This document shows, piece by piece, positions 30,534 to 39,839 of a stretch of 64,000 nucleotides of DNA. The notes under the pieces are model-generated. The model saw only the letters and a program-made list of their open reading frames with translations. It was not told where the DNA came from and searched no databases. Position numbers and translations under genes: made by a program. Source of the DNA: Cylindrospermum sp. NIES-4074 (lineage in GTDB: Bacteria; Cyanobacteriota; Cyanobacteriia; Cyanobacteriales; Nostocaceae); the NCBI GenBank assembly GCA_003994795.1, contig AP018269.1, positions 4,799,677 through 4,863,676 of the forward strand, in the 5' to 3' direction. The stretch's first letter is position 1; every line of letters begins with the position of its first letter.

Positions 30534-31041
30534 TTAATCGCTGATTTTAGGAATAGTATTAATTGATAGATTTAGGGTCGATATTGCCAACCCTAAAATT
30601 ACTAAAAATTTACTTAGGGCTATCTCTTATTCACTCTTCATTAGATTATACCGTGGCAGAATAAATTAAGCAATGTTTTTAAAAACATCAGGAGGATCAC
30701 GTTTGAAACTCATTTAATAGGTCTATTGCAACTCAGGGGCGGATTTTTATTTTTAAACCCAGTTAAAATGGCAACCTTGATCGAAGCTGATCCAACTGGT
30801 TTAAGTCATCATCCTCACCAGAAAAGACTTTCCCCCACCGATTAATGTGCGTAACGTACCAAATCAGATATGCGATCGCCACTCACCCCTCACTATATCA
30901 GCCTTGACTAGCGCTGGAGGTGAGGCTAAGAGGCGCATTGAGCAGTTTTCTATCTACCAAGTCAAGACACTCCTGTAGTGGCGTTGATAAGTCAGTGAGG
31001 CATCGATCCGCTGTTCAGAGGCTAGAAGTAGTTGTGGAGAG
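30534..31041. other. Gene-free region before the small-RNA array
   Basis: About 500 nt with no supported gene. A TTAGGGT...ACCCTAA hairpin (about 30571-30598) follows the upstream gene and may help end its transcript, although its T-run is poor. Confidence 0.5.
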
Positions 31042-31160
31042 AAAAAAGGCTTAACATTCAGCCAAGCCTTCATTATTTCTAGTGCTGAAGCAGACATTTG
31101 TGAATAATGTAGACTGACTTTGCTGATAAATCATCTTTCTATAGACTGTGTTCAGATATT
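31042..31160 (-). ncRNA. Putative small RNA, array copy 1
   Basis: On the minus strand the copy starts near the block ATATCTGAACACAGTCTATAG and ends in a terminator: AAGGCTT (arms 31046-31052 and 31064-31070) with a U-run from the A-tract at 31042-31047. It is the most diverged of the six clear copies in its middle. No reading frame is shared with other copies. Confidence 0.6.
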
Positions 31161-31189
31161 TTTAAGTCAGATATTTTCAAGGGCTGATA

Positions 31190-31304
31190 AAAAAGGCTTG
31201 ACTCCGCCAAGCCTTTATATATACCAAGCATTTACTACACCAAGACTAATTTAGACCGACTACCTCTTTAGTTCATCTTCCTATAGGCTGTGTCCAAATA
31301 TTTT
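31190..31304 (-). ncRNA. Putative small RNA, array copy 2
   Basis: The 5' block on the minus strand is ATATTTGGACACAGCCTATA (to 31302), followed by GGAAGATGA. The terminator stem is AAGGCTTG/CAAGCCTT (31193-31200 and 31208-31215) with a six-base U-run. The segment beyond the 5' end (CTATCAG on the minus strand) matches that of copy 3. Confidence 0.7.
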
Positions 31305-31336
31305 AAAACCTGATAGTGCTTTATCTAGTTACCTAT

Positions 31337-31455
31337 AAAAAAAGGTTTGGCAGTAAACCAAACCTTTCTAATTGCTGTGCTTAACAACGTACTAAATCAA
31401 TTTAGTATTACTCTTGCTCTTAGGTCATCTCCCTAGAGGATGTGTCCAAATATCC
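31337..31455 (-). ncRNA. Putative small RNA, array copy 3
   Basis: 5' block on the minus strand: ATATTTGGACACATCCTCTA, then GGGAGATGA. The terminator stem is a perfect 10-bp AAAGGTTTGG/CCAAACCTTT (31341-31350 and 31358-31367). Against copy 2, the C-G pair of the stem is replaced by T-A on both sides, a compensatory change. Confidence 0.72.
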
Positions 31456-31541
31456 TAAAAACTGATAGGGCATTACCCAGGCAAAATATTGTTTTTATAT
31501 TTAATAAAAGTATAAGAATATTTAAGTATTCTATCTATAGA

Positions 31542-31658
31542 AAGAAATAGGCCTGGCTAGAGCCAAGCCTATATATATACCAGGTGTTTACCATATGAAG
31601 TTAATTTATACCTACTTCCATTTAAGTTCATCTCCCTATGAGGTGTAGACAAATCTGC
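31542..31658 (-). ncRNA. Putative small RNA, array copy 4
   Basis: 5' block on the minus strand: AGATTTGTCTACACCTCATA, then GGGAGATGA. The stem is AGGCTTGGCT with AGCCAGGCCT (31549-31558 and 31561-31570), kept by one G-U pair in RNA. The U-run is broken (AUUUCUUUCU), so termination may be weaker. The middle (ATATATACCAGGTGTTTACC on the plus strand) closely matches copies 2 and 6. Confidence 0.65.
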
Positions 31659-31904
31659 TAAAAGCTGGTATCTAGTCACCAATTTCAGAAAAAAATTTTT
31701 TGAGTTGCTACCAATCGTCTAGATAATCTAGTGGCTATCAAAATCAATTATTATCTTCCTCCCTCATTAGTATGATTTTTTTAATATAAAACTCATATCT
31801 CACTTGTGAAAATAACTTTTTAGCAAACTCCAGAAGTCACCAAGATAGTTTTTGCAAATAATTTACAATTATGACGATATCTGTTTATATAATTTGGGTT
31901 TTGC

Positions 31905-32022
31905 TAAAAAAATGCCCTGGATGTGCTTCCAGGGTAAGTACACGTTTTTCAGGCATTAACAGACTGAATAATAACCCCATAATATAAAAAGCTTTACTAT
32001 CTAGAGAATGATCTGAATCTCT
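31905..32022 (-). ncRNA. Possible degenerate small RNA, array copy 5
   Basis: A 7-bp stem CCCTGGA/TCCAGGG (31914-31920 and 31928-31934) next to a seven-base A-tract on the plus strand forms a minus-strand terminator. About 117 nt away, CTAGAGAATGATCTGAAT recalls the conserved CTAGAGGATGTGTCCAAAT block. Length fits the unit, but the sequence between is not conserved, so it may be a decayed copy or an unrelated RNA. Confidence 0.35.
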
Positions 32023-32202
32023 AGACTTTTATGATGCCAGTAAAAAATCACTCCATTCAGCATAACAAATTCAGGCAAGCATTCAGCTATCTCTGTGTCA
32101 AAATATATGATTATACAAACTTGTATTTAGAAACAAAATAACAGGTATTTTGTTACATTCTCTAGGTTTCAAGATTAAATAAAGTTTGGGCAGACTCACA
32201 CA

Positions 32203-32320
32203 CAAAAAAGGCTTGGTTTGGAACCAAGCCTAGATATATACCAAGTGTTTACCATATCTAGTCAATTTAGACTTATTATAGATAGAGTGCATCTGTCTTT
32301 AGGATGTGTACAAATTGCCT
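32203..32320 (-). ncRNA. Putative small RNA, array copy 6
   Basis: 5' block on the minus strand: CAATTTGTACACATCCTAAAG, then ACAGATG. The stem is a perfect 10-bp AGGCTTGGTT/AACCAAGCCT (32209-32218 and 32222-32231) with a U-run of six. The middle reads ATATATACCAAGTGTTTACC on the plus strand, as in copies 2 and 4. Confidence 0.68.
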
Positions 32321-32602
32321 CTAAGCTGCTGGTGAATGCTAAAAGAGAAAGTGGCGTCATATCAGAATCTAATTTGATACTAGGAGTTGTATTTACTCTA
32401 GGTTAAATTATACTTAATATTATCATCAAAAAAATCAACTGAAAAGCATAACCCACCAATAAATATGGGTTAATAAGAAAAGATAACTTGTAAAACAGGC
32501 TACATTTTTAGTAACAATTGTATTTTATGATGGTGGCAATATAGATAATTTGTAACTTAGTTTTTCTCGTTGCTGATATTTCAACATTATCTTGTCAGGC
32601 AT

Positions 32603-32719
32603 AAAAAAAGGTTTAGCACTCAGCTAAACCTCCATAGAAAGCAGTTATTCGACACACCAGGATTAATTTAAATCTACTCTAATATTTGGTCATCTTCCTA
32701 GAGGATGTGTCCAAATATG
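32603..32719 (-). ncRNA. Putative small RNA, array copy 7
   Basis: 5' block on the minus strand: ATATTTGGACACATCCTCTA, then GGAAGATGA, identical to copy 3 over the first 20 nt. The stem is AGGTTTAGC/GCTAAACCT (32609-32617 and 32623-32631), changed on both arms relative to the other copies, with a seven-base U-run. This is the copy furthest upstream in the direction of transcription. Confidence 0.7.
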
Positions 32720-32720
32720 A

Positions 32721-33238
32721 CAAAATATGAGGGTTACTATCCAGTTAAAATCATGGCTAGTTCAACTATCTTTAGAGGGATTAAAAAGCAAAAATTGTAA
32801 CGAATAAAACAGAAGTGTTGAAGGTTAAAAAAAAGCCAATAAAAGTAGCCCAAAATATCTCAGATTTTGGGCTAAGGATTAAAATATATTAGTTTAACAG
32901 TGATTATAAATTCCTGCACCCAAAATTATCAAAGGTATCCTGAGAGAACTGCGAAAAAACGATTATCCAGTATGGAAAAGTCGTTTGTTCTTTGAGTGCT
33001 GGTAAGCATTCAGCCTGTAGCCTCAAGCTATCAGCTTTCCTTCAAGAATTTATGAGCATTCTGACAGATGGATTACTATGCTTTTGGTGTCAGTTTCCCC
33101 AACTCAAAACCCTTAAACTTCAGTCTCAAACCCGGTTTTAGACTTTCCTGCGGAACGCTACGCGTTGGCGGTTCGCGGAGCGTGTCGCAGACAAGCCTGC
33201 GCTTTGCGCTTACGGCGTGAGCGAGCGTCGAACGCTGA
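32721..33238. other. Gene-free region after the array, with a hairpin and mobile repeats
   Basis: AGCCCAAAAT...ATTTTGGGCT (near 32847-32873) is a strong hairpin next to an A-tract at 32826-32834 and could be another minus-strand terminator. From about 33147 a block of GGAACGCTACGCG and GTGAGCGAGCGTC repeats runs into GTGCTGA-type heptamers. No gene is supported. Confidence 0.5.
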
Positions 33239-33512
33239 GTGCTGACCGCTGAAGTGCTGAATGCTTACGAGTGCTGGCTATCTTATGCTCTGGATAACAG
33301 CTTAATAAGTATGCAAGATTTATTTCAAAGATTAAATAACACAGAATCCGATGTAGATATTTATACATTTTCTGAGTCAAGTTCTCACCGTAGTCAAAAA
33401 CCATTTCCAGACATTTATTTTTCAGCAAGTTATAGTTTAAGGGTATGGCTAGAAGTTACCTACTTAGCCAGGATATTTTTTGGTTGTCAATTGTTTATAG
33501 CTAGAGATGGAT

Positions 33513-38844: not shown

Positions 38845-38930
38845 AATAGGACAGGGGAGTGTGGGGAGTGTGGGGAGTGCTGAGTGCTGAGTGCTGAGTG
38901 TGGGGAGTGTGGGGAGGAGGGGGGATAAAT

Positions 38931-39082
38931 GACCAATTACCAATTACCAATTACCAATTACCAATTACCAATTACCAATTACCAATTACCAATTACCAAT
39001 TACCAATTACCAATTACCAATTACCAATTACCAATTACCAATTACCAATTACCAATTACCAATTACCAATTACCAATTACCC
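38931..39082 (+). repeat. Heptanucleotide STRR, about 21 copies of CAATTAC
   Basis: A near-perfect run of the heptamer CAATTAC covers about 147 nt and stops 8 nt before the rsmG ATG. Because 7 is not a multiple of 3, each reading frame through it gives a seven-residue repeat (QLPITNY in the rsmG frame). GTGCTGA and GTGGGGA heptamers precede it at 38860-38920. Confidence 0.92.
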
Positions 39083-39089
39083 ATTCCCA

Positions 39090-39839
39090 ATGACTAATTT
39101 AACAAATCCTTTGCTGCCGGAAATGGCAGAAGTTTGGCAGCAAACGCTTAATTGGCAACCAACTGACCAGCAAAAAGCGCAATTTCAGCAGCTTTATGAA
39201 TTAATTTTAGAAGGCAACCGCCAGCTAAATCTAACTCGCATTACTGAACCCCAGGAGTTTTGGGAAAAGCATCTTTGGGATTCTTTGCGGGGAATTGCGC
39301 CAAATCAGCAGTTACTCCCGATTCTCCAAGAGGGTGCGTCTGTGATTGATATTGGTACTGGTGCAGGTTTTCCGGGAATAGCGATCGCCATTTTTGCCCC
39401 TAATTCCCAAATTACTCTTTTAGATTCCACCCGCAAAAAGATTACTTTTATCAATCAAGTTTTAACCACACTAGCTCTAACCAATGTTAAAACTCTGATT
39501 GGTAGAGCCGAAGAAATCGGTCATGAACCCCAGCACCGTAGAACCTACGATCTAGCTTTAATTCGTGCTGTTGGCACGCCTTCAGTCTGTGCTGAATATG
39601 CTTTACCGTTAGTCAAACAGGGCGGTTTAGCGGTAATTTATCGCGGTAATTGGACAGCGGAAGAAGCAAAATCTGTGCAAAATGCAGCTAGCCAATTGGG
39701 TGGGGTAATTGAATCAATTGAACAATTTACTACTCCCCTAACTAATAGCATCCGTCACTGTTTGTATTTGCGGAAGATCGTAAATACACCATTTCAGTTT
39801 CCCCGTCCTGTTGGTGTACCTACACAAAATCCGCTGTGA
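39090..39839 (+). CDS. rsmG: 16S rRNA (guanine-527-N7)-methyltransferase
   Basis: 249 residues from the ATG at 39090. The same frame stays open through the STRR to an ATG at 38898, but that would add 64 repeat-coded residues, so I prefer the downstream start. Motifs: LNLTRIT..EFWEKHLWDSL, the S-adenosylmethionine loop VIDIGTGAGFPGIAIAI, and RAVGTPSVCAEYALPLVKQGG. The enzyme methylates G527 of 16S rRNA. No Shine-Dalgarno sequence is visible, since the heptamers occupy that place. Confidence 0.93.
   Translation: MTNLTNPLLPEMAEVWQQTLNWQPTDQQKAQFQQLYELILEGNRQLNLTRITEPQEFWEKHLWDSLRGIAPNQQLLPILQEGASVIDIGTGAGFPGIAIAIFAPNSQITLLDSTRKKITFINQVLTTLALTNVKTLIGRAEEIGHEPQHRRTYDLALIRAVGTPSVCAEYALPLVKQGGLAVIYRGNWTAEEAKSVQNAASQLGGVIESIEQFTTPLTNSIRHCLYLRKIVNTPFQFPRPVGVPTQNPL

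Follow-up and report, generated by a model that had tools for sequence, protein, structure and literature searches.

What are the repeated units on the minus strand of this part of the Cylindrospermum sp. NIES-4074 genome, and are they a form of the known small RNA NsiR1? The original prediction, made from a stretch of 64,000 bases (all of which we call the window), was a tandem array of about seven small-RNA (sRNA) genes, perhaps of a separate family.

Six sRNA-type units on the minus strand

Using the sequence and a covariance model (R1), we identified six sRNA-type units on the minus strand, between 31042 and 32738 (Table 1). R1 matches 31044-31179, 31191-31321, 31340-31473, 31546-31676, 32206-32337, and 32606-32738, with 107-130 bits. 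R1 was trained on the six units and one further copy (L001), so these scores are not independent; independent support for the units comes from R1 matches in other genomes (see below).

A search of 30600-33400 with R1, with the filters off, did not find a seventh unit, so the predicted number should be six. The next-best R1 matches in this region are on the plus strand, at 27.4 bits and less, and the best minus-strand match outside the units has 6.4 bits. Similarly, a pattern for the conserved 26-nt block, with up to 8 mismatches, finds exactly the six units in 30600-33400 and nothing on the plus strand; when 6 mismatches at most are allowed, only the six units are found on either strand of the window. 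Both R1 and the block pattern indicate that the series of units is real. Together with the terminators, they support the idea that these are tandem genes for putative sRNAs.

Table 1. Coordinates of the predicted sRNAs and putative promoter elements in the window.
Feature	Coordinates	Strand	Details and support
Unit 6 promoter element	32665..32738	-	block 32691-32716, TAAATT 32670-32665; R1, R2, block pattern
Unit 6, type D sRNA, predicted ~54 nt	32605..32658	-	terminator hairpin in simple scan
Unit 5 promoter element	32264..32337	-	block 32290-32315, TAAATT 32269-32264; R1, R2, block pattern
Unit 5, type C sRNA, predicted ~52 nt	32206..32257	-	terminator in simple scan
Unit 4 promoter element	31603..31676	-	block 31629-31654, TAAATT 31608-31603; R1, R2, block pattern
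Unit 4, type C sRNA, predicted ~55 nt	31542..31596	-	terminator in simple scan
Unit 3 promoter element	31399..31473	-	block 31426-31451, TAAATT 31404-31399; R1, R2, block pattern
Unit 3, type B sRNA, predicted 56 nt	31337..31392	-	RF02596 36.0 bits; terminator seen in sequence/alignment
Unit 2 promoter element	31248..31321	-	block 31274-31299, TAAATT 31253-31248; R1, R2, block pattern
Unit 2, type A sRNA, predicted ~52 nt	31190..31241	-	terminator seen in sequence/alignment
Unit 1 promoter element	31106..31179	-	block 31132-31157, TACATT 31111-31106; R1, R2, block pattern
Unit 1, type E sRNA, predicted ~58 nt	31042..31099	-	terminator in simple scan

The units were said to have no shared reading frame, and by eye we agree: the lengths of the loop and the spacer vary among orthologous copies. 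Some type C copies could encode a short peptide (MVNTWYI, then a stop). By eye, we rejected this candidate because the frame lacks a start codon in type A and several orthologues have lost the stop.

Elsewhere in the window, at 38898-39839, an open reading frame (ORF) begins with seven copies of PITNY. By eye, these copies are a short DNA repeat in front of a putative methyltransferase frame, and the true start is probably further inside.

Terminators and RNA structure

In each unit, the stem at the end is followed by a T-rich run, as in a Rho-independent terminator. A simple terminator scan found 7 sites, all on the minus strand, compared to a mean of 1.4 for shuffled sequence. Four of these sites are the ends of units 1, 4, 5, and 6, and three are not in units; units 2 and 3 are not among the scan's sites.

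The three other terminator-like hairpins (31915-31934, 32449-32472, and 32846-32874, all on the minus strand) do not have the block in front of them. They are possibly the ends of other short RNAs.

The stems were predicted to differ in sequence while keeping their pairing. We examined this with 105 distinct rows from the 150 best of 189 R1 matches. In the terminator helix, 94.4% of cells are paired, and 6 of the 11 pairs show two-sided changes, which bears out the prediction, in an alignment that had been fitted to the terminator structure and so leans towards it. In the helix that the block could form, 84.2% of cells are paired and two-sided changes are seen in 2 of the 7 pairs. Considering both helices jointly, the covariation score was reached by none of 500 shuffles (and was lower with slid partners), while the number of pairs with two-sided changes was reached by 139 of 500 shuffles. 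For a possible conserved 5' stem-loop in types A and C, we found no support beyond an AU repeat, and this repeat pairs equally well when slid by 2.

The conserved block is most likely a promoter

Where would the transcripts begin? The distance from the end of the block to a TAnATT box is 20, 20, 21, 20, 20, and 20 nt in units 1-6. In the alignment of copies, the stretch between block and box is variable and the box itself is nearly invariant. The match to the Rfam model RF02596 (cyano_het_sRNA) starts just past the box; the model spans 56 positions and has its end at the same terminator. Also, a stand-alone RF02596 copy elsewhere in this genome has the same block upstream of the first position of its Rfam match. 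Given the fixed spacing and the position of the block relative to the RF02596 match, the conserved 5' block is most likely a promoter, and the RNAs would be 52-58 nt long. Thus, of the predicted units of 113-119 nt, the conserved 5' block is real, and the fixed spacing argues that the RNA is not the entire unit.

Our predicted start rests on the -10 box and on the first position of the Rfam model. If the start is placed 7 nt past the box, then the CCTATAGG-like repeat is centered at -42.5 (-43.5 in unit 3). Class II activators sit near -42. (For another cyanobacterium, Nodularia spumigena CCY9414, the available part of PMC3610870 describes a published mapping of start sites.)

To describe the element, we built a sequence-only model (R2), searched 8 genomes, and scored the 150 best candidates per genome. 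Among these best candidates, every match with E < 1e-4 (45 in total) is at a unit of the array's sRNA family. There were 86 matches with E up to 1; the next two after the 45 are also family units, and the remaining 39 have E from 0.009 to 1. The full-length element looks dedicated to these putative sRNA genes, and shorter or diverged versions may exist elsewhere.

Relationship to RF02596 and NsiR1

The only Rfam match in the window at the gathering cut-off is RF02596 on unit 3 (36.0 bits, cut-off 35.7; Rfam 15). One of the six units passes this cut-off, by 0.3 bits. With E up to 1, four more units match below the cut-off (units 5, 6, 2, and 4, at 30.4, 29, 25.1, and 20.6 bits), and no match to unit 1 was reported. 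The genome's one full RF02596 copy, which we call type F, is at C1:6699061-6699116 (85.8 bits). It adjoins a gene for an OprB-type porin (by Pfam) on one side, and the ORF on its other side is, by eye, presumably nifH-like.

This copy aligns with units 1-6 across block, box, and terminator. (It was included in the training of R1, so its R1 score is not independent.) Its upstream block and terminator design are those of the array, and its TAAATT box lies about as far from the block. Unlike the clustered units of the array, whose 5' parts are of other types, it stands alone. By sequence comparison, the array units are paralogues of RF02596, with common descent of the whole gene including its putative promoter. 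So although the units had been suggested to be a separate family, they are kin to RF02596 and not wholly new.

From the name and the size, we guess that RF02596 corresponds to the sRNA 4547237r of PCC 7120. According to the available part of PMC4734099, 4547237r is 51 nt long, has homologues in 12 of 27 heterocystous genomes and nowhere else, and is transcribed under prolonged nitrogen deficiency and at advanced growth.

The proposed separation from NsiR1 could be tested directly. NsiR1 (RF02399), whose transcription is HetR-dependent and heterocyst-specific, has an array of its own in this genome, with 11 RF02399 matches (58-74 bits) upstream of hetF (L142, C1 ~4770064-4772065). A genome-wide search for pairs of TCCGGA that are 95-125 nt apart gave one place only, C1:4771300. 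The HetF protein at this locus matches NF045509 (NCBIfam) with 1428.9 bits, above the cut-off of 1200 (L143:4429-6984). The NsiR1 array is about 28 kb to the left of the window and about 59-60 kb from the sRNA array. Conversely, RF02399 (cut-off 39 bits) has no match in the window at the gathering threshold and none in 30600-33200 at E up to 1, and R1 reaches 12.5 bits at the NsiR1 locus. Because RF02399 finds the hetF locus and R1 scores only 12.5 bits there, we conclude that the array is a different family from NsiR1. The original prediction was also right that the array lacks TCCGGA, the DIF motif near -35 in NsiR1 (the 5 occurrences in the window are all outside it) and that it is not at hetF, which is about 60 kb away, beside the genome's own NsiR1 array.

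The two systems do resemble each other: in both, heterocyst-forming cyanobacteria have sRNA genes of ~60 nt in tandem, and every copy has a promoter and a terminator of its own. NsiR1 differs in sequence, promoter element, and locus, and its copies are much alike, while the array's copies are of divergent types. The Qrr sRNAs of Vibrio and the csRNAs of streptococci are also paralogous sRNAs under one regulator with overlapping targets. By analogy, the array may be a similar sibling set, but it differs in that most of its copies are clustered.

Types and distribution

We surveyed other genomes with R1, using Infernal's stricter filters throughout. At E up to 0.01, the family is found in 124 of 193 genomes of the host's family and no match is seen in the other 69. 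In a sample of the phylum, at E up to 1e-5, 37 of 386 genomes have matches, and all 37 are in the host's family.

By eye, we sorted the copies by their 5' parts: type A is unit 2, type B is unit 3, type C is units 4 and 5, type D is unit 6, type E is unit 1, and type F is RF02596. The types are mostly conserved between genera, again by eye; type E is rarer and more variable. The exact core of type F is in 63 named stretches, with Nostoc, Anabaena, Nodularia, Calothrix, Cylindrospermum, and Sphaerospermopsis among the genera. A 23-mer from type B, with up to 3 mismatches, has matches in 57 of 119 genomes, from 28 of the 56 genera. Most of these matches (57/59) have 0-1 mismatch, and the reversed control gave 7 matches. 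The first 21 bases of type B are kept in the best match of 56 of the 57 genomes (G116 differs). In G100, the type B match is on the minus strand at C1:104508-104530. There is no type B match in 6 of the 119 genomes that do have a clear R1 match (G003, G008, G018, G080, G088, and G107).

A weaker further type, at about 51 bits and with the 5' part CTCACTAACATCTACTTTTA, is present in two congeners (L058:9862-9988 and L059:8386-8512). It is not among the window's six units.

We also considered the neighbors of 15 array loci, within limited flanks. Each gene family adjoins the array at 3 loci at most, so we dropped synteny as a guide to function. In the window, L059, and L060, the neighbors of the array are rtcB and the genes next to it. 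In L062, L066, and L068, a different ORF (~350 amino acids) is just downstream of the array, and two further ORF families are near it in L065, L066, and L068. Such differing neighborhoods fit with action in trans.

A candidate target for types B and F

Types B and F have GTTGTTAnGCAC in common, and we searched for its complement in 6 genomes. (This was the one seed pattern searched, and it was chosen for B and F.) There were 26 matches: 12 are the B and F genes themselves and 14 are others, as compared to 10 for the reversed control, so there is no general excess. In 4 of the 6 genomes, one match is at the GTG start codon of the same orthologous gene.

In NIES-4074, this candidate target is at C1:5060138-5060878 on the minus strand (L181:769-1512). 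The protein has no match in Pfam or NCBIfam. A gene for a sigma-70 factor is upstream on the same strand, and a gene for a corrinoid adenosyltransferase is on the other side.

Orthologues of the target are present in 109 of 119 genomes, and we read 108 start regions. Of the 53 genomes that have type B, 42 carry the 11-mer GTGCTTAACAA at the GTG start, compared to 4 of the 55 without type B. By genus (any genome counts), the numbers are 22/25 versus 1/26; if genomes are instead divided by R1 status, with a narrower window around the start, they are 44/58 versus 1/50. Allowing G-U pairs, and with anchored starts, the site is in 45 of 51 type-B genomes and 4 of 43 others; the anchoring used likeness to the site, alike in both groups. 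Thus, the exact 11-mer is missing from 11 of 53 type-B genomes, and the site with G-U allowed is missing from 6 of 51 anchored ones. The 4 genomes with a site and no type B match are all from one genus (g7), in which other genomes retain the array (with type B in G131).

All 51 anchored target starts in type-B genomes are GTG, after an AGGAG-like site.

We then compared predicted pairing at this start to pairing at 510 decoys, which are the first-start starts of ORFs from the window and 87 related-genome loci, and not a curated gene set. In NIES-4074, F is predicted to pair at the GTG from -7 to +13 and to form one more short helix further on (-25.5 kcal/mol), and none of the decoys are as good. 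B pairs from +1 to +12 (-19.1 kcal/mol), with 1 of 510 decoys as good. The corresponding decoy counts (of 510) are 429 for A, 31 for C, and 456 for D. Across genomes, the mean F pairing is -24.1 in 55 R1-positive genomes versus -16.4 in 39 R1-negative ones. A, C, D, and E were tried on a small set of start regions only, and their best partners there are unrelated genes.

A caveat is that a tree of the target protein groups nearly all of the type-B genomes (with 3 changes in type B and 8 in the site), so the site statistics do not count independent events. The association between type B and the site is close to one evolutionary event, mostly in one clade. Also, the 11-mer is within codons 1-4, and the start-region profile shows that the N-terminus of the target is itself conserved, so coding constraint may account for part of the conservation of the site.

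Proposed explanation and alternatives

The family, its types, the promoter element, the terminators, and the complementarity were all found by computation. From these we propose, with fair confidence, that the array is six separately transcribed sibling sRNA genes with a shared promoter element, whose RNAs act by pairing in trans, with the start of the candidate target as a site for B and F. Each unit would have a separate promoter, consisting of a ~50-bp upstream element and, 20-21 nt past its end, the TAnATT -10 box. The inverted repeat in the middle of the element would be centered at about -42 relative to the predicted start. The element is probably bound by an activator, which would replace a -35 box. 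Each RNA would be 52-58 nt, with a type-specific 5' part and a Rho-independent terminator hairpin. Because they have a common promoter element, types A-E in the array and F elsewhere in the genome would be co-regulated. The sRNAs would act in trans, each using its 5' part to pair with mRNAs at their start regions. The gene of the conserved protein described above is the leading candidate for B and F, which may pair with the complement of GTGCTTAACAAC in the 5' region of its mRNA. They would cover the mRNA from just after the Shine-Dalgarno site to codons 4-5, and so translation would be blocked. We infer the transcription, the start sites, the activator, and the pairing in the cell (and its sign) from sequence.

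Several other explanations of the array should be weighed. That the units are ordinary NsiR1 copies in a displaced array has almost no chance of being right. The shared design of tandem ~60-nt sRNA genes with their own promoters in a heterocyst-type cyanobacterium (as the available part of PMC9045159 describes for NsiR1) would suit it, but the RF02399, R1, TCCGGA, and hetF tests refute this identity. It is very improbable that the array has no function and is just a family of repeats or a duplication in decay: the copy number does differ among genomes, some R1 matches are weak (40-59 bits), and genus g7 includes genomes with 0-2 matches, yet the types are kept across genera despite the differing neighborhoods, and the terminators show compensatory changes. 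It also seems unlikely that the RNA spans all 113-119 nt of a unit and that the 5' block is conserved for a function within that RNA. Few stretches are as well conserved across copies as the block, and its imperfect inverted repeat could pair (84.2% of cells). However, the distance from block to box is fixed while the sequence in between varies, two-sided changes are scarcer in the block helix than in the terminator, and the RF02596 model, with the same terminator end, starts after the box.

A stronger challenge is to the target. The sRNA family could be real and the site a coincidence due to the conserved N-terminus, in which case the RNAs would have other true targets or would bind a protein. 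We take this as a serious possibility, somewhat below an even chance. It is in keeping with an 11-mer that lies inside the first codons of a protein with a conserved start, with most of the sites being in one clade, and with the near-equality of non-self and control matches to the seed. On the other hand, compared with the 510 decoys, this start is a top-ranking partner for both of the paralogues B and F and not for A and D, with C intermediate, and at the genus level the sites follow type B.

Returning to the proposal of sibling sRNA genes that act in trans, it could be extended: the heterocyst-type cyanobacteria may have a regulon made of sRNAs only, in which a dedicated activator, through an element present in full length only in front of these genes, would switch on at least 6 siblings together. 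Each sibling would block the translation of its own set of mRNAs, and two of the siblings would converge on the start of this target. We consider this broader idea rather doubtful.

Significance

RF02596 is already known, and so are arrays of sibling sRNAs as a kind (NsiR1). Our literature search, which covered little subscription text or supplements, found no paper on a multi-type sRNA array with a shared promoter element. If our explanation is correct, then this would be a second multi-copy sRNA system of heterocyst-forming cyanobacteria beside NsiR1. The set of sRNAs would be widespread, and the single Rfam model that matches it would mostly detect the member that stands alone. The shared promoter element would give a handle on the regulator, and there would be one concrete target that is open to a simple reporter assay. 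More broadly, tandem paralogous sRNAs would be able to diverge in their pairing parts while one promoter is retained, and two siblings from two loci would meet at the start codon of a conserved protein that is encoded near a sigma-factor gene.
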